A stretch of 24,276 bases of DNA from the IMG/VR virus record IMGVR_UViG_3300037672_000490, positions 1 through 24,276 of that record; one strand, 5' to 3'. The DNA is from a virus. The notes below the pieces were generated by a model. The model was not told the origin of the DNA, did no database searches, and saw only the letters and a list, made by a program, of their open reading frames with translations. This document shows positions 10 to 23,863 of this stretch, piece by piece; within the stretch, counting starts at the first letter, position 1; each line of letters starts with the position of its first letter. Position numbers and translations under genes: made by a program.

Positions 10-936
10 ATGGCATTAGCACAACATGAGTTTGGTAAAACTGTAGAAAAGAAGTTCTATTATTCTGAAATATTTCACAGTATTCAAGGTGAAGGACATT
101 ACACAGGTGTTCCAACAGCATGGATACGTTTCTTCTTGTGCAATTTGCAATGCAATGGGTTTGGGCAAATAGATCCAACCAACCCAGACACATATGATTT
201 GCCATTTGAAAATTTTGATGTATCTAGTGTAGACAAAGTTGAAGACTTGCCTGTTTGGGACAAAGGTTGTGATTCAAGTTACACATGGGCTAAGAAGTTT
301 AAAGAGCTGATGGGTCAAGAAACACCAACTGTGATGGCAAACAAAATAGTTGATATAATGAAGAATGAAAGTAATCCACAAGGATTATTTAAACACCCAG
401 TAACAGGACAAAGTCAACATTTGTGTATCACAGGTGGAGAGCCATTAATGGTTACAGGACAAACAGCAACCATAGGCATATATGAAGAACTTGAAAGACA
501 AGGTAACTTGCCTGGATCGATGACATTTGAAACTAATGGCACACAAAAACTTAGACAACCATTTATTGATTGGGTTAACAGAATTGATACAGAAATATTC
601 TTTAGTTGTAGTCCTAAACTGTTTACAGTATCCGGTGAGAAAAGAGAAAAAGCAATCAAGCCTGAGATTGTGGCAGAGTATAGAAAACTTTCTAGCAAAG
701 GACAATTAAAGTTTGTGGTAGGTCCTGATGATAGAGAGTGGGAAGAAATGGAAGAAGTAATTAAACTTTTTAAAGCACAAGGTGTTGATTGGCCAGTATG
801 GGTTATGCCTACAGGTGCAAGAGAAGAAGAACAAACAGCAGGTGCAGGAAAGGTTGCCGAAAAGGCTTTCAAACGTGGTTACAATGTCGCGGCGAGAGTT
901 CACGTTTATCTTTTTGGTAATGCGATAGGAACATGA
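10..936 (+). CDS. queE: 7-carboxy-7-deazaguanine synthase-like radical SAM enzyme (QueE)
   Basis: QueE enzymes are radical SAM proteins that contract 6-carboxytetrahydropterin to 7-carboxy-7-deazaguanine, a precursor of preQ0, queuosine and deazaguanine DNA bases. The 308 residues carry the family's N-terminal FHSIQGEG segment (22-29) and the SAM-binding GGEP (142-145). The three cluster cysteines appear to be C44, C48 and C87. The usual CX3CX2C is interrupted: after CNLQC about 38 residues intervene before CDSSYTW (87-93), which matches the CDTxYTW that normally follows at once. The protein is therefore longer than typical QueE. The start is the first ATG in the window and sits only nine bases from the edge, so upstream signals cannot be judged. 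It overlaps the next gene by 4 bases (ATGA). A DpdA-like gene near 20.1 kb gives it a likely purpose in DNA modification. Family call is confident; activity is inferred. Confidence 0.86.
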   Translation: MALAQHEFGKTVEKKFYYSEIFHSIQGEGHYTGVPTAWIRFFLCNLQCNGFGQIDPTNPDTYDLPFENFDVSSVDKVEDLPVWDKGCDSSYTWAKKFKELMGQETPTVMANKIVDIMKNESNPQGLFKHPVTGQSQHLCITGGEPLMVTGQTATIGIYEELERQGNLPGSMTFETNGTQKLRQPFIDWVNRIDTEIFFSCSPKLFTVSGEKREKAIKPEIVAEYRKLSSKGQLKFVVGPDDREWEEMEEVIKLFKAQGVDWPVWVMPTGAREEEQTAGAGKVAEKAFKRGYNVAARVHVYLFGNAIGT

Positions 937-1553
937 TCAAAGATATTTGGTTTAAAGCAGAAGAAATAGTTTCAAAAGTAGATGTAGCAGAAACAGTTGT
1001 CAAGGTATTTAAAACAACAATTATGTTTATTGCATGTGTGGGAGTATTTGCAGTGTTATTGATATCAACATTATTTAAAGATAGAAAAAGAATTATTTAC
1101 AACAGAGATAATACACGAGAGTATCTTGTGAGATACTATTTGTTTTTAAAAGATAGAAAAAACTTTCCTTTTAACTTTACATTACACAAAGTGATGTTAG
1201 GTGATGAACCAATACTACATAGTCATCCTTGGAATTGGGGTGCTATAATATTAAAAGGTGGATATTGGGAACATACTCCTAAAGGTAAATTTTGGAGGGG
1301 TCCTGGCAGTATAAGATTTAGAAAAGCAGAAGATTTACACTATTTAGAATTAGCCAAAGATGAAAATGGCAATGAAATTCCTTGTTGGAGTATATTTTTT
1401 ATGGGTAAAAAAACAGAAGGTGATCATTGGGGATTCCTTGTTAATGGTAAAATGATACATCACGAAGAATTTCTTAAAAACAGAGACAAATATCCAACAA
1501 CTAGATTAGAACAGATGTCTAATCTTACACACGATCCTATTGCACATTGCTAA
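933..1553 (+). CDS. Membrane-anchored cupin-like protein
   Basis: This 206-residue protein has a hydrophobic segment at about residues 27-47, followed by a basic stretch. A globular domain follows with cupin-like metal-site motifs: HSHPW at 96-100, the G-rich turn LKGGYWEH at about 107-114, and a later histidine in the EDLHYLEL segment (H136). Cupins are small beta-barrels that bind a metal through such histidines and serve as dioxygenases, isomerases or sugar-binding proteins. The sequence does not say which applies here. The N-terminal helix would place the barrel at the inner membrane. The start overlaps the queE stop by ATGA, so the two are translationally coupled. The domain assignment is fairly good; substrate and role are unknown. 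Confidence 0.62.
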   Translation: MIKDIWFKAEEIVSKVDVAETVVKVFKTTIMFIACVGVFAVLLISTLFKDRKRIIYNRDNTREYLVRYYLFLKDRKNFPFNFTLHKVMLGDEPILHSHPWNWGAIILKGGYWEHTPKGKFWRGPGSIRFRKAEDLHYLELAKDENGNEIPCWSIFFMGKKTEGDHWGFLVNGKMIHHEEFLKNRDKYPTTRLEQMSNLTHDPIAHC

Positions 1554-1554
1554 T

Positions 1555-1908
1555 ATGGATAGTACTAAATTAAAATTTATCCAACAGAATATCAGTCGTG
1601 CTAAGAACAGAGGCCAAAAATCTTGGTCAAGTGAAATAACTAAAATTGATGTATATAATATTGGCCAAAAACAAAATTGGAAATGTGCTATAACTGGAGA
1701 TGATTTAGAATTTGTACGTGGAGGAGGAAAATGGCAAAATAAATGGTGTAACCCACAATCGTGTACAATTGATAGGATAGATCCAACAAAAGGATATACA
1801 GTAGACAATATTCAACTATTAACACACAAAGCAAATACTTGGAAAAGTTCATTTACACACGATGAATTAAGAGATTTAAGTGAAAGATTTCTTCAAAAGA
1901 CCACTTGA
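1555..1908 (+). CDS. HNH-type endonuclease
   Basis: The 117-residue product shows the pattern of phage HNH nucleases: CAITG at 44-48, a further Cys pair (C65, C70), then TIDRID (71-76) and KGYTVDN (79-85), followed by an Asn/Lys-rich helix (NTWKSSF). In this family the IDRID/GYT.DN segment forms the beta-beta-alpha-metal active site, and the cysteines may bind structural zinc. An in-frame TTG at 1540 would overlap the cupin gene. I prefer the ATG at 1555, just after the cupin stop, although no clear ribosome binding site precedes either. Free-standing HNH genes in T4-like phages are often homing endonucleases that sit next to their target. Whether this one is mobile cannot be told from the sequence alone. 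A strong promoter begins at its 3' end. Confidence 0.72.
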   Translation: MDSTKLKFIQQNISRAKNRGQKSWSSEITKIDVYNIGQKQNWKCAITGDDLEFVRGGGKWQNKWCNPQSCTIDRIDPTKGYTVDNIQLLTHKANTWKSSFTHDELRDLSERFLQKTT

Positions 1909-1932
1909 CATTACCGCTAAATATGTTATAAT
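1905..1932 (+). promoter_or_regulatory. Sigma-70-type promoter with extended -10
   Basis: A perfect TTGACA (1905-1910) is followed after 16 bases by a perfect TATAAT (1927-1932), preceded by TGT (1924-1926) as an extended -10. Predicted +1 is about 1939. It overlaps the last codons of the HNH gene and fires into the FEN nuclease cluster. The heptamer CTAAATA lies in the spacer (1917-1923). Confidence 0.8.
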
Positions 1933-1966
1933 GACTTATATAGAATACTTAAAATGGAGAATAGAA

Positions 1967-2035
1967 ATGCTTAAATTTGATAATGTAATTATATTTCCCA
2001 TAGAAAAGACAATAAAAAATGAAAAAGAAAAATAA
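1967..2035 (+). CDS. Possible 22-residue leader peptide or micro-protein
   Basis: Directly downstream of the promoter, GGAG (1956-1959) lies 7 bases before an ATG that opens a 22-codon frame. The frame reads MLKFDNVIIFPIE and then a Lys/Glu-rich tail. It overlaps the start of the next gene (2019) in another frame. The frame is open back to an ATG at 1931, but that lies inside the -10 box and cannot be transcribed from this promoter. The ribosome binding site and position make translation plausible. It could be a coupling peptide for the next gene, which lacks a good site of its own. The short length leaves real doubt. Confidence 0.4.
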   Translation: MLKFDNVIIFPIEKTIKNEKEK

Positions 2036-2441
2036 AATACCATTTAACTTAAATCCAAAAGGATGGTTACTAAAAGGCAAGGACAAAGAACGTGCCAAAG
2101 CACATCATGAATTATCAGGTACAGAACTTGATAAGAAACTTGCTGATATAGATAACAAGCCTTTTGTGACTGTATTGAATACGAACTTTGATCCAGAGAA
2201 CCCAAAGAAAGGATACTTTGAGTTAGACTGGAATCAATCATTTATTGATATGTTATCTAAAAATAATTACACAGGTGTAACAGATGACGAAATTGTTAAC
2301 AAATGGTTTGATGATCTTTGCCGAGGCATTGTTTTAGAAACCATGGACCAAGATGTGTTTGAAGAATTAAAAGCACAACAAGAAAACAGAGAAAAAATTT
2401 CTAAAACTGAACTCAAAGATGGCAAAGTAGAATATTCGTGA
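2019..2441 (+). CDS. Hypothetical phage protein
   Basis: I do not recognise this 140-residue protein. It opens with a basic, Lys-rich stretch (MKKKNKIPFNLNPKGW), then has a charged region, and the second half looks globular and acidic (about residues 60-115, with aromatic positions such as YFELDWNQSF). The tail is charged and probably helical. There is no signal peptide, membrane segment or cysteine motif. It lies about 80 bases downstream of the predicted transcription start and ends in a GTGA overlap with the FEN nuclease gene, so the two are probably co-expressed early. That context suggests a replication or early-infection accessory role, which is inference only. Confidence 0.7.
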   Translation: MKKKNKIPFNLNPKGWLLKGKDKERAKAHHELSGTELDKKLADIDNKPFVTVLNTNFDPENPKKGYFELDWNQSFIDMLSKNNYTGVTDDEIVNKWFDDLCRGIVLETMDQDVFEELKAQQENREKISKTELKDGKVEYS

Positions 2442-3430
2442 CATATATATTAGTAGATACAGCAAACACATTTTTTAGGGCTAGACATGTTTCTAGTAGA
2501 GGAACTGACCTAGATACAAAGATCAGTTTGGCATTTCACATTCTTTTTAATTCACTTAAAAAAGCCAACACAATGTTTTCAGGATCACACGTTGTATTCT
2601 GTTTAGAAGGACGTAGTTGGCGTAAAGATTTTTACGAACCATATAAAAAGAATCGTGCAGTTGTACTTGACAAAAGAACTGAACGTGAAAAAGAAGAAGA
2701 TGATTTTTGGTGGGAAGCATTTGATCATTTTTGTACATTTGTAAAAGAAAATACAAACTGTTCTGTATTGCGTGAACCAACATCAGAAGCAGACGATTTA
2801 ATTGCGTTATGGACACAAGCACATCCAAATGATAAGCACATTATTATATCATCAGACTCAGATTTTTATCAGTTAATAAATCAAAACATCTCTTTATATA
2901 ACGGAGTAGCAAATCAAATTGTTACAGCAAATGGTTTTTATGATGAAAAAGATCGTCCTATTATAGATAAAAAAACAGGTGAAACAAAGTTACCACCTAA
3001 TCCAGAGTGGTTATTGTTTGAAAAATGTATGAGAGGTGACTCAACAGACAATGTTTTTTCAGCATATCCAAAAGTACGTAAAACTAAACTTGAAGAAGCA
3101 TTTGCTGATAGAGATAATCAGGGATTTGTTTGGAATAACATGATGTTACAACGTTGGACAGACCATAATGGTGTAGAACATAGAGTAAAAGAATGCTATG
3201 AAAGAAATAAGAAGTTAATTGATTTAACTAAACAACCAGAAGAAATTAGAACTAAAGTATTTGCAGAAATATTAAAAGCACAGAATCCAAAACATATTGA
3301 TCAAGTTGGAATACGTTTTATGAAGTTTTGTGCAAAGTATGGCTTAACAAAATTAGCTGAACAGCCAACTGATCATGCACAATACTTAAATGCAGGATAC
3401 AAAATTGTTGAAAGCCAAACAAATAATTAA
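2438..3430 (+). CDS. rnh: FEN-family 5'-3' exonuclease (T4 RNase H-like)
   Basis: This 330-residue protein is a flap-endonuclease-type 5' nuclease like T4 RNase H, which removes RNA primers and 5' flaps on the lagging strand. The acidic metal-binding residues are in place: D7 in ILVDTANTF, E117/D119/D120 in SEADDL, D140/D142 in SSDSDFYQL, and D201/D204 in MRGDSTDNV, followed by the helix-hairpin-helix-like PKVRKTK. The basic arch region is also visible (about 60-85, with WRKDFYEPYKKNR). T4 RNase H is about 305 residues, so this is full length. The start is a GTG overlapping the previous stop as GTGA. It would act with the polymerase (15.9 kb) and the clamp (19.4 kb). The residues beyond about 270 are less recognisable. 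Confidence 0.88.
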   Translation: MTYILVDTANTFFRARHVSSRGTDLDTKISLAFHILFNSLKKANTMFSGSHVVFCLEGRSWRKDFYEPYKKNRAVVLDKRTEREKEEDDFWWEAFDHFCTFVKENTNCSVLREPTSEADDLIALWTQAHPNDKHIIISSDSDFYQLINQNISLYNGVANQIVTANGFYDEKDRPIIDKKTGETKLPPNPEWLLFEKCMRGDSTDNVFSAYPKVRKTKLEEAFADRDNQGFVWNNMMLQRWTDHNGVEHRVKECYERNKKLIDLTKQPEEIRTKVFAEILKAQNPKHIDQVGIRFMKFCAKYGLTKLAEQPTDHAQYLNAGYKIVESQTNN

Positions 3431-5471: not shown

Positions 5472-6104
5472 ATGTTCAAGTTAAAAAACATATCAATAGA
5501 TGTAGAAATTTCAACAAAGTGTACAATTAAATGTCCAGCTTGTCCAAGAACTTATTGGAAAGACAATACCTGGAATACTGGATTTATGAAAGTTGATGTC
5601 CTTAAATCATTTGTATCAAATAGCAATTATTGGAGTTACAACTTTTGTGGAGCATTTGGAGATGCATTGTATCACCCAAACTTTAATCAAATAATGGAGT
5701 TTATGATTTCTCAAAATAAAGGATTTTCAGTTGAAACAAATGGTGCATACCGAAATGAAAAATTTTGGAATGAGTTTATTTCATTTAATTGGAATCCACG
5801 TTATCATAGATTTATTTTTAGTATTGATGGACTTGAAGACACTAATCATATATATAGAAAAAATAGTGATTGGAAAAGTATTATGCTGGCTCTTAATACA
5901 ATTACCTCGGTTCCTAAATATCGAAGACCACACCTTAAATGGAAGTATTTGGTTTTTCCTTATAATGAGCACCAAGTGGAAGAAGCAAGAGCACTAGCAA
6001 AAGATATTGGATTTGATCAGTTTGAAACTTACAAAAGTTTAAGAAAATACAATACACAATGGTTTGAAAATGATCAAGAAAGACGTAACATACAATGGCA
6101 GTAG
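5472..6104 (+). CDS. Radical SAM/SPASM protein, N-terminal part (catalytic domain)
   Basis: This 210-residue frame holds the radical SAM core: CTIKCPACPR with cysteines C17, C21 and C24 binding the 4Fe-4S cluster, then a strand-helix repeat region with a GAFGDALYHP segment (GD/GE-type SAM contact), FSVETNGA, and FSIDGLEDTNHIYRK (about 115-130). Such proteins with a C-terminal SPASM region modify peptides or proteins. The frame ends at a TAG (6102-6104) just where the rest of the protein continues in the -1 frame from 6095. Homologous architecture would be one chain of about 310 residues. Either this is a one-base deletion or sequencing error (for example TGGG to TGG near 6096), or the two halves are made as separate, coupled proteins. 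The substrate is unknown. Confidence 0.78.
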   Translation: MFKLKNISIDVEISTKCTIKCPACPRTYWKDNTWNTGFMKVDVLKSFVSNSNYWSYNFCGAFGDALYHPNFNQIMEFMISQNKGFSVETNGAYRNEKFWNEFISFNWNPRYHRFIFSIDGLEDTNHIYRKNSDWKSIMLALNTITSVPKYRRPHLKWKYLVFPYNEHQVEEARALAKDIGFDQFETYKSLRKYNTQWFENDQERRNIQWQ

Positions 6105-6418
6105 AAGATTTAGATCCAAAATGCTTTAAAGATATGGCACATTTTTTAAGTGCTGATGGTAATCTTTATCCTTGTTGCTTCGTATATGTTCAAAAAGACG
6201 AGCTTAAAGAGTGGGCTATAAAGAATAATGCTGATATAAACGATTTAAATATTGAAAAAAACACTCCAAATCAAGTAGAAACGTCTAATTTTATGAATAA
6301 ATTTAACAAATCGTTTGCTATAAAGACCTGTTATAGAGAATGTGGCAAAAAAGGGTATAATACTTCTCTAACTGGACAACCAAAGTGGGAAACGTATAAA
6401 ACAACGAATAAGGCATAA
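6095..6418 (+). CDS. Radical SAM/SPASM protein, C-terminal part
   Basis: The frame begins at an ATG overlapping the end of the upstream radical SAM frame by 10 bases and encodes 107 residues. It has the look of a SPASM-type auxiliary cluster domain: C10 in PKCF, then SADGNLYPCCF (C27, C28), then CYRECGKKG (C79, C83). On its own it has no catalytic domain. A stop in this frame lies only about three codons upstream of the ATG, so any fusion point must lie between about 6089 and 6101. The ribosome binding site is poor, which argues for coupling or for a broken single gene. The two frames are best read together as one radical SAM/SPASM protein. Confidence 0.7.
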   Translation: MAVEDLDPKCFKDMAHFLSADGNLYPCCFVYVQKDELKEWAIKNNADINDLNIEKNTPNQVETSNFMNKFNKSFAIKTCYRECGKKGYNTSLTGQPKWETYKTTNKA

Positions 6419-14835: not shown

Positions 14836-15864
14836 ATGAAAAATAATGTAGCAGTTATAGGAAATGGAAAGATTGGCCGAGTTATCGCCAGTTTACTACG
14901 ATCAGAAAATTATAATGGTGTAATAGGAGATTCAATAGCAAGTAATGGAGTTGTTTCGTTAGATGCATCTAATGAAACACAATTAGAACATTTTTTAAAA
15001 AATAAAGATGTAGTATGTTCTGCGGCCCCTTACTATTTAAATAAAGGTATTGCTAATGTGGCCTCAAAATTAGGTGTAGCATACTTTGATTTAACAGAAG
15101 ACGTTGAAGTAACTGACTATATTAAAGATTTAGATACTAAAACTTTTATGATGCCCCAATGTGGATTGGCTCCTGGTGCAGTTAATATTATTGGAAGTAA
15201 CTTAATTAAAGATTTTGATGAAGCACATGATGTACAAATGAGGGTTGGTGCATTACCACGTTATCCTTCAAACGAAATGAGCTATTACTTAACCTGGTCA
15301 ACAAATGGGTTGATAAACGAGTATTGTAATTTATGTGATGTAATTGCAGACGGCAAAAAATTAAAAATACCACCGTTAGATGGAGTCGAAAGAATTTATA
15401 TCGATGGCAGAAGATATGAAGCATTTAACACATCAGGTGGCGTAGCAACAATGTGTGAAACGTTTGATGGAAAAGTAAACACATTAAGCTATAAAACAAT
15501 TAGATATCCTGGTCATAGAGATAAAATGAACTTCTTATTACAGGATTTAAACCTAAAAAGTAACAAAGATAAAATAGGTGACTTATTTGATCAAACAGTT
15601 CCATATACTACAGAAGATGTTGTAGTTATGTTGATTAAAGTAATTGGAATGAAGAACGGAAAACTATTAGAAAAGTCATACCAGAAAAATATTTTTGGAA
15701 AAGATGGTATGAGTGCAATTCAGAGGTCGACAGCATCTGGAGTTTGTGCTAATATAGTATCATACTGTAGGGATGAGCTTACAGGTGAGGGTTTTGTTAA
15801 ACAAGAAGATGTTAAATGGCAAACTTTTATTAGCAATAAATTTGGCCAGGTGTATGTTGAATGA
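14836..15864 (+). CDS. Saccharopine dehydrogenase-like oxidoreductase
   Basis: A 342-residue protein with an N-terminal Rossmann fold (VAVIGNGKIGRVIA, nucleotide loop GNGKIG at 9-14). Then come the SAAPYYLNKGIANVASK segment and PQCGLAPGAVNIIG typical of saccharopine dehydrogenase (Lys9) and carboxynorspermidine dehydrogenase relatives. The C-terminal half contains GGVATMCETFDGK and KTIRYPGHRDKM, as in the catalytic domain of that family. Enzymes of this group act on lysine, saccharopine or polyamine adducts using NAD(P). Which one this is cannot be decided from sequence. L-lysine 6-dehydrogenase is another option. It ends in an ATGA overlap with the DNA polymerase gene. It is probably an auxiliary metabolic gene of bacterial origin. 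Confidence 0.82.
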   Translation: MKNNVAVIGNGKIGRVIASLLRSENYNGVIGDSIASNGVVSLDASNETQLEHFLKNKDVVCSAAPYYLNKGIANVASKLGVAYFDLTEDVEVTDYIKDLDTKTFMMPQCGLAPGAVNIIGSNLIKDFDEAHDVQMRVGALPRYPSNEMSYYLTWSTNGLINEYCNLCDVIADGKKLKIPPLDGVERIYIDGRRYEAFNTSGGVATMCETFDGKVNTLSYKTIRYPGHRDKMNFLLQDLNLKSNKDKIGDLFDQTVPYTTEDVVVMLIKVIGMKNGKLLEKSYQKNIFGKDGMSAIQRSTASGVCANIVSYCRDELTGEGFVKQEDVKWQTFISNKFGQVYVE

Positions 15865-18575
15865 GTTACGTAGACGCATATTTAAATAGAGATAAAGATC
15901 AAATCAATATAGTAGAACGTATTGATGGAAAAAGAATATACAAAACTTTTCCAACAACATATAGATTCTATTATGAAGATAAAGATGGGCAACACACATC
16001 AATACATAATCGCCCATTAAGTAAGTTCGAAACACTAAACAATAAATCATTTCAACGAGAAAAGAAACTATATGAAGGTCAGCGATTGTATGAAGCAGAT
16101 CTCAATCCTGTTTTTAGATGCTTAGAAGAAAATTATATTGAAAAAGAAGCACCAAACCTACATGTAGCACTATTTGATATTGAGGTAGACTTTGATAAGA
16201 ATCGTGGATTTGCAAGACCAAATGATCCGCATCAACGTATTACAGCAATCAGTGTACATCTTAATTGGTTAGATAGTTTAATTACACTATGTCTTGCTCC
16301 AAAAGACATGCCATTTGAAATGGCAGATTCAATTGCTAAAAAGTTTGACAATACTGTATTGTGTGAAACGGAAGCTCAATTACTAAACACATTCTTACAT
16401 TTAATTGAAGATGCAGATATATTAAGCGGATGGAATAGTGAAGGTTTTGATATTCCATACATTGTAAACAGAACTGAAATGGTATTGAGCAAAGATGATG
16501 TTAGACGTTTTAGTTTGTGGGACTTATATCCACGTGAAAGAATGTTTACAAAGTTTGGTAATGAACAACAAACATTTGATTTCTTTGGCCGTGTACATTT
16601 AGATTATTTGGAATTATATAGGAAATACACATATCATGAAATGCACTCATATAGACTTGATGCAATTGGTGAGTATGAAGTTAATGAAAAGAAAGTTCCA
16701 TATGAAGGAACACTTGATCAACTTTACAATGAAGACTTTGAAAAATTTATTGCTTATTCAAGACAAGACGTTGCACTACTATCAAAACTTGATGACAAAT
16801 TAAAATTTATTGATTTAGCAAATGTGTTAGCACACTCTAATACTGTGTTACTACAAACAACGATGGGTGCAGTTGCACAAACAGAACAAGCAATTGTAAA
16901 TGAAGCACATAAACGTGGACTTATTATTCCAAATAGACCATATAGAGAGCCTCACTCATCTGGTGCGGCAGTTGGAGCCTATGTAGCAAAACCTAAAAAA
17001 GGTTTGCATGATTGGATTGCATCAATTGATATTAATTCACTATATCCTAGTGTAATTAGATGTTTGAATATGGGTCCAGAAACTATAGTTGGACAGTTAA
17101 GACCAACACATACAGAAAAATATATTAATGACAAAATTTATAAAGAAAAAAAGTCTGCCGCAGATGCATGGGAAGGAATGTTTGGTACAATTGAGTACAC
17201 AGCAGTTATGGAAAAAGATCGCGGAGTAGAAATTATTGTTGACTTTGAAGATGGAACTACAGAACAAATGAGTGGAGCAGAAGTATATGCAATTGTATTC
17301 CATCAAAATCAAGGTTGGTGTTTGTCAGCAAATGGTACAATATTTGATACAACTACCAAAGCAGTTATTCCTGGATTGTTAGAAACATGGTTTGCAGAAA
17401 GAAAAGTATTACAAGGCAAAATGCGTGAAGCTATTGCAAGTGGTGATAAAGAACAAATAGAGTTTTGGGATAAAAGACAACTTGTTAAAAAGATTAACTT
17501 GAATAGTTTATACGGTGCAATACTAAATCCTGGATGTAGATTTTTTGATCAGAGAATAGGTCAGTCAGTTACACTCACAGGTAGAACAATCACAAAACAC
17601 ATGGGTGCAATCACAAATCAAATAATGACAGGTGAGTATGATCATGTAGGTAAATCAATTATATATGGTGATACAGACTCTGTTTATTTCTCAGCATATC
17701 CAATGGTTAAAGAAGATGTTAAAAGTGGTGCATTGCCGTGGACTAAAGAAAGTGTTATTGAATTATATGATAGCATAGCAGATGAAGTAAACAAATCATT
17801 TCCACCATTTATGATGAAAGCAACAAATGTGCCACGTGAGAATGGTGAAATTATTAAAGGTGGTAGAGAAATGGTTGCATCAAAAGGATTGTTTATCACA
17901 AAGAAAAGATATGCGGCATTAATATATGATTTAGAAGGTAATAGGCAAGATGTTGACAAGCCAGGTAAACTAAAAGCAATGGGGCTTGATTTAAAAAGAT
18001 CTGATACTCCTGATTTTGTACAAAACTTTTTATCAGACATATTGTTACAAGTTTTAACAGGTGTTGATAAAAAAGAAATATTAACAGCAATACAAGAATT
18101 CAAACGTAAGTTTGCAGACAGACCTGGTTGGGAAAAAGGCACTCCAAAACGTGTAAACAACTTAACCAAATATGTGCAAGATATTGAAAAATATAAACGT
18201 GCTACATCACGTATGGCTAATGGTGGTGCAAATGGCAAAATTAAAAAACCAGTAATGCCAGGACATGTAAGAGCAAGTATTAATTGGAATTCAATGCGTA
18301 GTGCATATAAAGATTTATATTCATTGCCAATTATGGATGGACAAAAGGTTATTGTGTGTAAATTAAAAGCAAATCCAATGAACTTTACATCTATTGCATA
18401 TCCAATTGATGAGTTAAATATTCCAAAATGGTTTAAAGAACTTCCTTTTGATCATGATGGTATGGAACAATCTATTATTGATCAAAAAGTTAGTAACTTA
18501 ATGAGTGAATTAGGTTGGGATTTAGAATCAACAAAAACATCATCAGTATTTGAAAGTTTATTTGAGTCAGCATGA
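15861..18575 (+). CDS. 43: Family-B replicative DNA polymerase (gp43-like)
   Basis: The phage replicase has 904 residues (T4 gp43 has 898). The proofreading exonuclease motifs are FDIEVDFD (Exo I, D106/E108), SGWNSEGFDIPYIVNR (Exo II, from 189) and YSRQDVALL (Exo III, 299-307). The polymerase motifs are DINSLYPSVI (motif A, 390-399), KKINLNSLYGAI (motif B, about 543-554) and YGDTDSVYF (motif C, 602-610, two catalytic Asp). The C-terminus (SSVFESLFESA) may hold the clamp-binding peptide, as in T4. All catalytic residues are intact. It overlaps both neighbours through ATGA. The sliding clamp gene follows 0.8 kb downstream, separated by an epimerase gene and a promoter. Confidence 0.97.
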   Translation: MSYVDAYLNRDKDQINIVERIDGKRIYKTFPTTYRFYYEDKDGQHTSIHNRPLSKFETLNNKSFQREKKLYEGQRLYEADLNPVFRCLEENYIEKEAPNLHVALFDIEVDFDKNRGFARPNDPHQRITAISVHLNWLDSLITLCLAPKDMPFEMADSIAKKFDNTVLCETEAQLLNTFLHLIEDADILSGWNSEGFDIPYIVNRTEMVLSKDDVRRFSLWDLYPRERMFTKFGNEQQTFDFFGRVHLDYLELYRKYTYHEMHSYRLDAIGEYEVNEKKVPYEGTLDQLYNEDFEKFIAYSRQDVALLSKLDDKLKFIDLANVLAHSNTVLLQTTMGAVAQTEQAIVNEAHKRGLIIPNRPYREPHSSGAAVGAYVAKPKKGLHDWIASIDINSLYPSVIRCLNMGPETIVGQLRPTHTEKYINDKIYKEKKSAADAWEGMFGTIEYTAVMEKDRGVEIIVDFEDGTTEQMSGAEVYAIVFHQNQGWCLSANGTIFDTTTKAVIPGLLETWFAERKVLQGKMREAIASGDKEQIEFWDKRQLVKKINLNSLYGAILNPGCRFFDQRIGQSVTLTGRTITKHMGAITNQIMTGEYDHVGKSIIYGDTDSVYFSAYPMVKEDVKSGALPWTKESVIELYDSIADEVNKSFPPFMMKATNVPRENGEIIKGGREMVASKGLFITKKRYAALIYDLEGNRQDVDKPGKLKAMGLDLKRSDTPDFVQNFLSDILLQVLTGVDKKEILTAIQEFKRKFADRPGWEKGTPKRVNNLTKYVQDIEKYKRATSRMANGGANGKIKKPVMPGHVRASINWNSMRSAYKDLYSLPIMDGQKVIVCKLKANPMNFTSIAYPIDELNIPKWFKELPFDHDGMEQSIIDQKVSNLMSELGWDLESTKTSSVFESLFESA

Positions 18576-19397: not shown

Positions 19398-20141
19398 ATG
19401 TTAAAAGATGTATTACTAGACATTGTAAAACATACTCATTCGTTGGGCTTTATTCAAGCAGTAAAACTTGAAAGCACAGATGAAGGCACAAGTATTGAAG
19501 CAATGGATGATGATAGAACAGTAGTTCTAAAAGGTAAATTAAAAGATAAATTAGACAACGTTCCAGGATTAATTGGAATGGGTAGACTTGGTGTACTATC
19601 AGGCTACTTAAACTATGAAGCATATGGCAAAGATGGTGCAAACATCGAAGTTATGACAAACACAAGAGATGGTGTAGAAACAGCAGAAGAGCTAAAATTT
19701 ACATCGCCAGGTGGTTATACTGCAAACTATAGATTCATGGTAAGTTCTTTAATTGAAGAACAATTAAAAACAATCAAGTTTAAAGGTGTTGAATGGGATA
19801 TTACAGTACAGCCAACACAACAAAATATTAAAGACTTGACTTACTTTAATGGTATTATGGGTGGCTTTGAGCCAACATTTGTTGCAAAAACAGATGGTGA
19901 TACACTAAAGTTTTATATTGGAGATGGCGCAAATGACAGAGTTGAAATTCCATTTGCTCAAAATGTGCAAGGCAAACTAACTAAAGGTTGGGCTTGGCCA
20001 CTAGCACAGGTATTGAGTATTTTGAAATTAAGTGATACTTCACAAGCAAGTATGTCATTTAGTGATCAAGGTGCTATGCAGATATCAATTGATTCTGGCA
20101 CAGCAACTTATGATTATATCCTACCTGCTAGGAGTCAATAG
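19398..20141 (+). CDS. 45: Sliding clamp, DNA polymerase accessory protein (gp45-like)
   Basis: At 247 residues this is close to T4 gp45 (228), the trimeric ring that tethers the polymerase and also activates late transcription in T4. Recognisable features are the PGLIGMGRLGVLSGYL segment, the strand NIEVMTN, the middle IKFKGVEWDITVQPTQ, and the C-terminal QISIDSGTATYDYILPARSQ. The gene has the strongest initiation signals in the window: extended -10 promoter plus GGAGG. This fits a protein needed in many copies. The stop TAG shares its last base with the GTG start of the DpdA-like gene, so clamp and transglycosylase are transcribed and translated together. Confidence 0.88.
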   Translation: MLKDVLLDIVKHTHSLGFIQAVKLESTDEGTSIEAMDDDRTVVLKGKLKDKLDNVPGLIGMGRLGVLSGYLNYEAYGKDGANIEVMTNTRDGVETAEELKFTSPGGYTANYRFMVSSLIEEQLKTIKFKGVEWDITVQPTQQNIKDLTYFNGIMGGFEPTFVAKTDGDTLKFYIGDGANDRVEIPFAQNVQGKLTKGWAWPLAQVLSILKLSDTSQASMSFSDQGAMQISIDSGTATYDYILPARSQ

Positions 20142-21667
20142 TGTCAAAACCATACGGAGAAGATCTAACAGCCAGCCACAAAGACTATGCTGTGTTTTTA
20201 CCAGCAGTTAGTGGCTTTTATCAAACTTATGTAAGTAAGCAACAACAAACAGGCGGAACTGACAAACAGTTTGTGCCAGATGATAGAATCCCAAAAGGAT
20301 TTGAAAATGGTATTGAAGGACTAAACTATCTTAACAAAGAAAAAGGTTACTTCAATTACAAATATGGCTTATACTCAGCCGGCCACGCTCATCTAGATGT
20401 TGAAAAATCTATTGTGAACGAATCAATGTTTCACACAAGAAATAAAAAAGATACTATTATTGTAGGTGACAGTGGTGGATATCAAATTGGTAAAGGCATA
20501 CTAAAATTTGATTGGGAAAACTTCAAAGGCAAATCTGCAAACACAATGCGTAATAAGATTCTACATTGGTTAGAACTTACAGCAGATTGGTCAATGGTGT
20601 TAGATATTCCTAGTTGGGCAAGTGATGCCACACACAGCCCTAAGACAGGATTGAAATCGTATGGTGATTGTATTTCAGGTACAGTACATAACAATGAATA
20701 TTTTTTAAAACATAGACTTGGACAAACAAAGTTTCTGAACGTGCTTCAAGGCTTTGATATTCCAACTGGAGACGTATGGTATGATGCTGTGAAGCATTTT
20801 CCATTTGAAGGTTGGGCATTTGGCGGAAACAATATGTGTGATATGACAATGGCTCTCCGACGCCTAATTATATTACGTGATTCTAAATTACTTGATAACA
20901 GAGATTGGATACACTTTCTTGGTACAAGTAAATTAGATTGGGCTTGTTTCTTAACGTCAATTCAAAGGCAACTAAGAAAGCATGTAAATCCAAACCTGAC
21001 AGTATCTTATGATAGTGCAAGTGCGTTTGTGGCAACAGCACATGGTTTGGTATATACTTCACCGGTTCATACTAACAAGCGATGGTCATATATTATGGAC
21101 AAAGCAACTGATAGTAAAGCATTAAAACTTTCTACTATACCGTTTCCATGGGAGTCGGAGATTGGCAGAAGGCTTACTATTGGTGATATTTGTTGGTATG
21201 GGCCTGGTGATTTAAACAAGGTAGGCAAAGAAGGTAAAACATCTTGGGATTCATTTGCTTATGCATTGATGATGGGTCATAATGTTAATCAACATATTAA
21301 GATTGTACAAAAAGCAAATCAAATTACTGATATTGAATCATCTATACACAAGCCAGATTACAGACACTGGCGTAAAGTAAAACAAAAAGAAACATCAGCA
21401 GAATTTAGTGACTGGTGTCCTAGAAATGTACTTTACTTTAATGCTTTCATTGAAGATTTCTTCAAGTCAGAAACTCCTATGCAGATGTTAGAAGACAACC
21501 AAGCATTCTTACATGACATAAGAGGTGTGAGATGGACTGGACAATCTGGTAACAACTTCACTAATCTATTTGATGTTGATACACAAAGCTCAATGGGTGA
21601 TGGCGATCTAGGTGATCCAAATGATGTAAAATTAGAAGAGTTGGAAAAGGTGTTAGAAACTGTATAA
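20141..21667 (+). CDS. dpdA: DpdA-like 7-deazaguanine DNA transglycosylase (TGT superfamily)
   Basis: DpdA proteins swap guanine in DNA for a 7-deazaguanine base, using the same chemistry as tRNA-guanine transglycosylase. This 508-residue protein shows the TGT barrel landmarks in order: VGDSGGYQIG (108-117, base-binding Asp D110), MVLDIPSW (D155), LNVLQG (199-204), GWAFGGN (224-230), HFLGTSK (258-264), and VSYDSASAF with D291 as the probable nucleophile. The TGT zinc motif (CXCXXC...H) is not visible, and the C-terminal region differs, as expected for DpdA rather than a tRNA enzyme. The start is GTG with AGGAG upstream in the clamp gene. Coupling to the clamp suggests modification during replication. 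Together with QueE at the window start it argues for deazaguanine DNA. Confidence 0.83.
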   Translation: MSKPYGEDLTASHKDYAVFLPAVSGFYQTYVSKQQQTGGTDKQFVPDDRIPKGFENGIEGLNYLNKEKGYFNYKYGLYSAGHAHLDVEKSIVNESMFHTRNKKDTIIVGDSGGYQIGKGILKFDWENFKGKSANTMRNKILHWLELTADWSMVLDIPSWASDATHSPKTGLKSYGDCISGTVHNNEYFLKHRLGQTKFLNVLQGFDIPTGDVWYDAVKHFPFEGWAFGGNNMCDMTMALRRLIILRDSKLLDNRDWIHFLGTSKLDWACFLTSIQRQLRKHVNPNLTVSYDSASAFVATAHGLVYTSPVHTNKRWSYIMDKATDSKALKLSTIPFPWESEIGRRLTIGDICWYGPGDLNKVGKEGKTSWDSFAYALMMGHNVNQHIKIVQKANQITDIESSIHKPDYRHWRKVKQKETSAEFSDWCPRNVLYFNAFIEDFFKSETPMQMLEDNQAFLHDIRGVRWTGQSGNNFTNLFDVDTQSSMGDGDLGDPNDVKLEELEKVLETV

Positions 21668-22323: not shown

Positions 22324-22845
22324 ATGAAGCGAGAATACGATAATCAAGAGATCAAAGAGAATGTCACTGACTTTGTTGGCATAGAAGTTGAAAGAACTCC
22401 TTGCTATGGAATGAACACATATTTTGTAGTTGGGGTTCCAAAAGAAACACCAGTAAATTTTGTTAACAAAGTCATTAAACATGATATAGAACAAATTTAT
22501 TTTGGAGCCAATCATTCATTTAAAAACTGGAAAAAACAATGGACAGATCCTATGTTTGATCTTATTAAAGAATGTTTAAATGCAAAGCTACATGTAACAG
22601 TCGATGTTGATCCTGTAACAGTTCCAAATCAAATAAAACAGTTTCTTTCACATGCAAGATTTAGTTTAACTTATGCAATTGTAGTTCCTAACATTGATAA
22701 AATTAAAGGAACAATCAATATTAAACTTGATGATGAAGATTTTGAAGCAACAAATAATGGAGTATGGTCTACTACTATAGAAACAATTAAAGTTCCAAAT
22801 AACTATACAGGTTGGGAAGAATATAAAAAGGATAAGCCAGTATGA
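22324..22845 (+). CDS. Conserved hypothetical phage protein
   Basis: A 173-residue protein with segments IEVERTPCYGMNTYFVVGVP, HDIEQIYFGANHSF and TVDVDPVTVP. It ends with INIKLDDEDFEATNNGVWST. The order of strands and helices suggests an alpha/beta fold. I recall very similar blocks (YGxxTxFVVG, IYFGANHSF, DDxDFxATNxGVW) from T4-like cyanophage proteins of unknown function, so it appears to be a conserved marine T4-like gene. No catalytic motif is certain. It is the first gene of the last operon, at a promoter whose +1 coincides with its ATG. It overlaps the next gene by 4 bases (ATGA). Confidence 0.75.
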   Translation: MKREYDNQEIKENVTDFVGIEVERTPCYGMNTYFVVGVPKETPVNFVNKVIKHDIEQIYFGANHSFKNWKKQWTDPMFDLIKECLNAKLHVTVDVDPVTVPNQIKQFLSHARFSLTYAIVVPNIDKIKGTINIKLDDEDFEATNNGVWSTTIETIKVPNNYTGWEEYKKDKPV

Positions 22846-23223: not shown

Positions 23224-23420
23224 CAAGTGTAGATGATTACGATCATGATAAAACTTATGAAAACGAGCAGTCAATGGTAACAATACCATTAAAAGAATAT
23301 GACAAGCTAAAAGAAAAATCTAAGTATATAACAGATAGAGATTTAATTGGCTGTATTGATAAAATTGAAGAGCTTGTTAGAGCATTAAGGAAACACATAG
23401 TTAGAACGGAGATAGATTGA
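23220..23420 (+). CDS. Small hypothetical protein
   Basis: A 66-residue acidic protein. The N-terminus is polar and probably disordered (MTSVDDYDHDKTYENEQ). A strand follows (MVTIPLKEYDKLKEK), then a C-terminal helix (DKIEELVRALRKHIV). The middle VTIPLKEYDKL segment is reminiscent of short dimerising modules in phage regulatory proteins, but this is too brief to assign. GGAGG lies just upstream in the preceding gene's last codons (about 23212-23216), and the start overlaps that stop as ATGA. Confidence 0.6.
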   Translation: MTSVDDYDHDKTYENEQSMVTIPLKEYDKLKEKSKYITDRDLIGCIDKIEELVRALRKHIVRTEID

Positions 23421-23863
23421 TGAAAAAACTAATTTGGGTAACATTTAGAAAAGAAGGAATACATAAGTATCCGGCGGCATTAGATGACCCTAAACTTGCA
23501 ACAGGTGATGAATATGATGTTAGTTTTTTAGGATATCCACATAGACATATATTTCATTTTAAAGTCGCTATTGAAGTATTCCATGATGATAGAGATATTG
23601 AATTTATACAGTTTAAAAGATGGCTTGAAAAACTATATGCAGAAAAAACACTTGAACTTGATTATAAGTCATGTGAAATGATGGCAGATGATTTATATAA
23701 AGAAATTAAGCAAAAGTATGTTAAACGTGATGTAAGAATTGAAGTATCTGAAGATGGTGAAAATGGTTGTGAAATATATTATCCAAAAGATGAAAGTGTA
23801 AAAACAGGTTACAAAACATACGGAGACATGGTAGAAGGAAAAGATAATCATGCAACTCACTAA
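23420..23863 (+). CDS. Divergent QueD/PTPS (T-fold)-like protein
   Basis: From the ATG at 23420 this is a 147-residue protein whose layout follows 6-carboxytetrahydropterin synthase (QueD). It has VTFRKEGIHKYP with H15 in place of the FxAAH zinc His, then PHRHIFHFKV (H41, H43) in place of LHGHxY. DIEFIQFKRWL (59-69) matches the DFxxLK segment, SCEMMADDLYKEI matches the TSExLA helix, and VSEDGENG (109-116, E111) matches the final ETxxxG strand. The three zinc histidines are present, but the catalytic Cys expected just before HGH is absent. So either the reaction differs or the protein is non-catalytic. A TTG three bases upstream is in frame; I chose the ATG because GGAG (23408-23411) is 8 bases away. 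Related proteins occur in cyanophages. The family call is by eye. Confidence 0.6.
   Translation: MKKLIWVTFRKEGIHKYPAALDDPKLATGDEYDVSFLGYPHRHIFHFKVAIEVFHDDRDIEFIQFKRWLEKLYAEKTLELDYKSCEMMADDLYKEIKQKYVKRDVRIEVSEDGENGCEIYYPKDESVKTGYKTYGDMVEGKDNHATH

Follow-up and report, generated by a model that had tools for sequence, protein, structure and literature searches.

A dpdA-like gene behind a sliding clamp gene

The window analysed here is a 24.3-kb virus fragment whose carrier is described as a giant marine phage. A gene of 508 codons with a GTG start lies on its plus strand at positions 20141–21667, and conserved residues, profile alignment, an AlphaFold model and Foldseek searches characterise the product as a DpdA-like, putative DNA-guanine transglycosylase. 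The start region (20130–20143, plus strand) lies at the end of the preceding clamp gene, which contains an AGGAG Shine-Dalgarno sequence (20130–20134) ending six bases ahead of the GTG (20141–20143), and this start codon shares its first base with the end of the clamp stop codon, TAG (20139–20141). The open reading frame and its one-base overlap, as proposed in the initial annotation, are thus real. The label given there to the upstream gene (19398–20141, plus strand, 247 aa) is correct as well: its structure model (pLDDT 91) has the PCNA fold, all 50 top matches being PCNA structures with E-values of about 1e-10 to 1e-11. Compared by hhalign with one T4 gp45 sequence, the clamp family showed no signal. 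Farther upstream, a family-B replicative DNA polymerase, relatives of which are annotated as DNA polymerase, is encoded at 15861–18575 (plus strand); in phage PA5oct, a gene for a Hef-like homing endonuclease divides the polymerase into two genes (L007:2608-7834).

The association of the two genes is conserved. The clamp gene precedes dpdA on the same strand in 86 of 86 loci and is never more than about 1.35 kb away; the distance is at most 20 nt in 38 of them and 300–420 nt in another 34. The 1-nt overlap was seen again in 16 of the examined loci. The gene order in the wider jumbo-phage clade is PolB, clamp, dpdA, c3, c4, a glycosyltransferase-like gene and folE, followed by cupin, phosphoribosyltransferase, HIT protein, queE and RNase H. 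In the window, c3 (22324–22845, plus strand) codes for a conserved 173-aa protein without convincing Pfam or PHROG match, which follows dpdA in 80 of 90 loci, and c4 (23417–23863, plus strand; PHROG 17812, a family without assigned function), possibly a QueD-like T-fold protein, is present in 77 of 90. The window's own subclade has queE, cupin and RNase H 19 kb upstream instead (10–3430), with QueE, 7-carboxy-7-deazaguanine synthase, at 10–936 (plus strand; PHROG 2076, E 3e-54, NCBIfam QueE models below cut-off) and the cupin ('cysteine dioxygenase', PHROG 4786), which in relatives is usually near queE or folE, at 933–1553 (plus strand). Since folE precedes queE by about 3.6 kb in the nearest large relative, its position would be just beyond the left end of the window.

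Genes coding for proteins of 90–99% identity were found on six contigs, one of them 328 kb long, and a wider profile search gave more than 540 relatives on viral contigs, 80 of which were kept. Cultured phages with a homolog comprise PA5oct-like Pseudomonas jumbo phages (41% identity), Vibrio phage 2.275.O (31%) and Sinorhizobium phage Phosso (28%), whose records give the gene as a hypothetical protein. The window protein itself had zero matches by sequence in Pfam, PHROGs, NCBIfam, PADLOC or the PDB. In addition, a TGT-like gene was seen in jumbo phages of Pseudomonas putida and Xanthomonas (L010:5881-7251 and L011:5572-7278); the P. putida phage copy retains the zinc region (as CNCPVC) and scores above the Pfam TGT cut-off, and its lysine-rich tail has no clamp peptide.

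Fold, catalytic residues and the predicted base

The AlphaFold model of the protein, built from 55 family members, reached a pLDDT of 85.8. In a Foldseek search of the PDB, all 32 matches below 1e-3 were TGT or DpdA structures, with the next match at 2e-3; the best ones were TGTs, namely Zymomonas mobilis structures with E-values as low as 2.8e-8, and DpdA, the DNA preQ0 insertase of bacteria (7ui4), was matched with 1.8e-5. A non-TGT barrel as best structural match, which would have refuted the initial annotation, did not come out. Among viral models (BFVD), the DpdA2 of phage nt-1 (E 6.7e-8) and several phage TGT-like proteins were recovered, as was a 596-aa model (E 1.2e-28) of the same length as the Vibrio 2.275.O homolog. 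Profile–profile comparison with DpdA2 yielded an hhalign E-value of 1.9e-6 across the catalytic blocks, in which the DSGG, Q-G and SYDS blocks pair with those of nt-1 DpdA2.

All TGT-barrel landmarks that had been recognised in the sequence, GDSGGYQ (with D110), LNVLQG (Q203-G204), GWAFGGN (G228-G229) and SYDSASAF (D291), are present, and residues D110, S111, G112, G113, Q115, D155, Q203, G204 and D291 are invariant in the 55 aligned family members. D110-S111 of the DSGG motif (20468–20473) is, by its position in the TGT motif, the counterpart of E. coli TGT D89; D155 (20603–20605), within SMVLD, aligns with the FD of FDEIP in DpdA2 (FDEC in TGT); Q203-G204 (20747–20752) corresponds to the base-recognition Q-G pair; and D291 (21011–21013), the predicted nucleophile, pairs in the profile alignment with E. 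coli TGT D264 of the DCVMPTR motif (all plus strand). Hence, the features of the TGT superfamily, i.e. the barrel fold, a catalytic Asp pair and the Q-G site, were found, and the assignment of D110 and D291 to the active site holds insofar as both fall on TGT catalytic positions by alignment, without geometry. The TGT zinc motif is missing, as initially noted: CxCxxC is absent from 55 of 55 members.

Fold and catalytic residues are observed in this family, on which no experiment exists, and DNA as the substrate is inferred. The TGT fold would equally suit a tRNA-guanine transglycosylase that alters host or phage tRNA and thereby boosts translation, and raised tRNA queuosine has been proposed for phages that have 7-deazaguanine genes without a recognised DpdA (PMC6884629). 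We regard such a role as very improbable given the absent zinc motif, the nearest sequence profile being that of DpdA2, a DNA enzyme family, and the placement of the gene within the replication module. That no sequence family recognises the protein could also be expected of a degenerate TGT-fold protein without enzymatic role, for instance a replication accessory factor, but catalytic residues that stay invariant across diverse members and co-occurring deazaguanine genes leave hardly any room for it. The fold matches below 1e-3 confined to TGT and DpdA, the match to nt-1 DpdA2 and the accompanying 7-deazaguanine genes instead uphold the DpdA-like identity proposed initially, and the enzyme, for which there are no activity data, is a new, unannotated branch of this known kind.

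The gene cluster also supports a 7-deazaguanine base. In searches of 17 whole records, controls 9g and nt-1 included, QueE was found in 17, FolE in 13 and QueD in 11, and a clear QueC only in Vibrio phage 2.275.O and the two controls; most of the jumbo phages covered, PA5oct, Phosso and a 353-kb contig among them, were without it. The homolog of Vibrio phage 2.275.O sits in a full QueF-YhhQ-QueC-FolE cluster, and an 'Amidoligase' match adjoining it is weak (E 1.8e-4). A weak QueC-like match in the nearest large relative was rejected, as it reads as an NAD synthetase-like ORF. Thus, the synthesis genes agree with the 7-deazaguanine initially predicted, but the base is not necessarily preQ0: with queC missing from most genomes, it may be 7-carboxy-7-deazaguanine or host-supplied preQ0. 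The simplest prediction, in which the base is inferred, is that the jumbo phages make and insert 7-carboxy-7-deazaguanine, or that host QueC finishes preQ0; Hutinet et al. raised the same possibility for Mycobacterium phage Bipper (PMC6884629). An inserted base that is host-made preQ0 rather than 7-carboxy-7-deazaguanine would change only the identity of the base and be compatible with the explanation favoured below. This is a serious possibility, to which we give somewhat less than even weight: QueC is present in most bacterial control genomes, and expression of 9g DpdA alone leads to dPreQ0 in E. coli (PMC6884629), but if host preQ0 sufficed, it would be odd for PA5oct, Phosso and the 353-kb contig to have FolE, QueD and QueE without QueC.

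The role of c4 remains tentative. Residues H16, H42-x-H44 and E87 are conserved as in QueD-type T-folds, and one c4 relative gave a PTPS match (E 0.017); with profile support only weak, the assignment as QueD was not adopted. Copies of c4 accompany dpdA in both jumbo and DpdA2 phages (e.g. L144:11323-11706 and L149:9241-9594), and the protein may act on the base in DNA.

Several further observations concern the same genomes. In the 328-kb relative (G001), a region around 266000-280000 of its contig C1 (L220) holds what appear from the ORF sequences to be genes for EF-G, ribosomal protein L11, IF-3, an S21-like protein and ClpX, lying near queD and NAD synthetase. G001 and related contigs have up to 15 extra weak radical-SAM matches to the QueE profile per genome, which suggests expanded radical-SAM repertoires. 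In the window, a radical-SAM domain (5472–6104) and a SPASM-like domain (6095–6418) are encoded by two overlapping ORFs that differ in frame and may be a single gene broken by a frameshift.

Clamp-type peptides in DpdA tails

The last 45 residues of the modelled protein are mostly of low confidence and include NNFTNLFDVD (residues 471–480; 21551–21580, plus strand), a putative clamp-binding peptide for which there are no binding data. It resembles the C-terminus of the polymerase of the same phage, SSVFESLFESA (18540–18572, plus strand), the counterpart of the clamp-binding tail of RB69 gp43, and four of its residues are conserved: N471 in 43, F473 in 40, L476 in 47 and F477 in 52 of 55 members. 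Near-identical pairs of DpdA and polymerase peptides occur in relatives, such as NTFGSLFSFEE/NTFGSLFSFD (L067) and NNNDLFGW/NNTDLFDW (Vibrio phage 2.275.O). The strict pattern F..LF[DESTG] had 148 matches in 392,157 residues (shuffle mean 0.6, maximum 4), 83 of them in the tails of polymerases and 49 in those of DpdAs, i.e. 132 of the 148 in these two families, and a relaxed pattern was found in 79 of 89 DpdA tails (shuffle mean 12.8, maximum 22). After clustering at 90% identity, 50 of 53 members of the jumbo family had the loose and 28 the strict pattern. These patterns were chosen after the sequences had been seen, the raw counts overstate independence owing to family kinship, and motifs this short can arise by chance. 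A test for pairing with the own polymerase was marginal (4.55 vs 4.31) and confounded by relatedness. The polymerases of T4 and RB69 bind the clamp with their C-terminal peptide (PMC3012046), and the clamp-binding C-termini of T4 gp43, gp55 and gp33 are interchangeable (PMC2988020). The peptide of the jumbo family is usually internal in the tail rather than terminal; a fused gp55-gp33 is functional with the gp55 motif internal (PMC2988020).

Peptides of the same kind were observed in DpdA2 and DpdA1. In DpdA2 proteins from 78 contigs, 70 end in a T4-type peptide (31 of 34 after 90% identity clustering), with ends like those of the cognate polymerase (TTLDELFE/PSLDDLFE in ACP17, QSLEELFG/SSLESLFG in X1). 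Only 57 of 1,498 other non-polymerase genes in these loci have it, nearly all being the glycosyltransferase-like gene directly upstream of dpdA2 or c4 relatives, some DpdA2-linked copies of which end in NDLFN. This glycosyltransferase-like protein of about 454 aa, seen at L154:8631-9995 and in many of the loci L133-L212, ends in SLESLFA and may glycosylate the inserted base. The peptide is not universal, however, as the DpdA2 of nt-1 and KVP40 have no clamp-type tail. DpdA1 proteins end in Qx0-2[LIM]F (e.g. QELF) in 55 of 77 cases (38 of 60 after clustering at 90% identity) vs 0 of 801 other genes, the beta-clamp consensus being QLxLF (PMC2705854), and a DnaN gene follows on the same strand in 67 of 80 loci, within 10 nt in 41. 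The DpdA of 9g ends in RLQDLFDE, and that of CAjan, encoded one small gene ahead of a processivity factor, in VMELF. The clamp gene comes first in the jumbo group and dpdA first in the DpdA1 group, from which we infer that the association with the clamp probably arose more than once.

We consider it probable that the protein is a DpdA-type DNA-guanine transglycosylase without zinc motif, held to the clamp at the fork by its PIP-like tail peptide while inserting 7-deazaguanine. On this explanation, the peptide in the flexible tail would dock on the PCNA-type clamp, the product of the preceding gene, at a surface also used by the polymerase tail, and keep the enzyme at the replication fork. D291 would break the glycosidic bond of guanine in DNA, and the guanine would be replaced by 7-deazaguanine from phage FolE-QueD-QueE, i.e. 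7-carboxy-7-deazaguanine, or preQ0 if host QueC acts. Newly copied DNA would be modified as the clamp passes, and the phage would disguise its DNA while copying. Physical clamp binding, the timing and protection from restriction are all inferred.

A DpdA-type DNA transglycosylase whose link to the clamp is only genomic, with both genes co-expressed in the replication phase and the tail peptide serving otherwise, is conceivable given the dense packing of phage genes, many of which overlap, and given that the clamp–dpdA gap measures 300–420 nt in 34 of 86 loci and is larger in some. What makes it unlikely in our view is that the peptide fits the clamp type, FxxLF occurring with the PCNA-fold clamp, SLEDLF with T4-type polymerases and QELF with DnaN, and that L476 and F477 are conserved among variable positions of a low-confidence tail. 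The link to replication, initially inferred from the gene overlap alone, is accordingly strengthened by the polymerase-like peptide and the matching peptides of DpdA2 and DpdA1. The initial annotation knew of no description of such a link; the adjacency as such is not unique, being found in 9g and CAjan, and a literature search for DpdA with clamp returned no paper on the link among the matches listed.

Phage DpdAs are thus probably clamp clients, although binding data are lacking. With only slightly better than even confidence, we extend the clamp-bound reading to phage DpdAs generally: the peptides of three diverged families fit their own clamp types, base exchange would be coupled to replication, the tails of the glycosyltransferase-like protein and c4 in DpdA2 phages suggest a line of clamp-held enzymes acting on the DNA base, and the base inserted by the QueC-less jumbo clade may be 7-carboxy-7-deazaguanine, plain or decorated. 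The published work that we found treats DpdA as a free enzyme and leaves unexplained both its access to guanines across a replicating genome and the range of modification, from only about 0.1% of G in nt-1 to up to 27%, about a quarter, in 9g (PMC6884629). A clamp tether, if true, would explain genome-wide access and timing and be a new mechanism for the whole DpdA kind. It also makes the variation in level testable, with DpdA2 of nt-1 and KVP40 lacking the peptide and DpdA1 of 9g and CAjan having it; that its presence in 9g and absence in nt-1 parallel the modification level is suggestive only, as pathways and methods differ. In CAjan, deletion of dpdA abolishes dPreQ0, and DpdA is essential for DNA modification (PMC6884629). 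Finally, the assignment gives a named DpdA to a large set of jumbo phages, the P. aeruginosa phages PA5oct, MIJ3 and Paride among them, in which the gene is listed as hypothetical protein, and thereby bears on restriction resistance and on work with such phages.

Comparison with known systems

DpdA2 of Vibrio phages nt-1 and KVP40 (YP_008125322, PHROG 10773) is likewise a zinc-less TGT fold with aligning DSGG, D-x-P, Q-G and SYDS motifs, clusters with FolE and QueC and, in most of its wider members, ends in a clamp-type peptide. In contrast to the jumbo family, the DpdA2 genes looked at do not adjoin a clamp gene, and identity in the profile alignment is only about 17%; PHROG 10773 did not match the window protein or those of PA5oct and Phosso, and that of 2.275.O only with E 0.13. 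DpdA1 of 9g and CAjan is also a phage DNA-guanine transglycosylase adjoining clamp and polymerase genes, with the clamp-like C-terminal peptides given above, but it goes with a DnaN-type clamp and its gene precedes the clamp gene rather than following it. Sequence similarity to it was undetectable (9g: BLASTP E 0.76, hhalign 0.17; CAjan: no profile match). The DpdA3 subfamily is presumably present in Campylobacter phage CP220 and Cellulophaga phage phiST; the family profile had no match in either genome, and BFVD links one phiST protein weakly (9e-3) to the model. Bacterial DpdA (7ui4) shares the fold but belongs to a restriction-modification island of bacteria. Bacterial TGT, represented by the Z. 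mobilis structures, gives the best fold matches and shares the catalytic motifs, but acts on tRNA and has a CxCxxC zinc site (CDCYTC at 302 in E. coli) that the jumbo family is without. The T4 alpha-glucosyltransferase, which was pulled down with the sliding clamp gp45, is a phage DNA-modifying enzyme that binds its clamp, as we propose here, but it adds glucose to hydroxymethylcytosine and differs in fold and chemistry; in the same 2026 T4 study, clamp binding did not set its share of glucosylation (PMC13216743).
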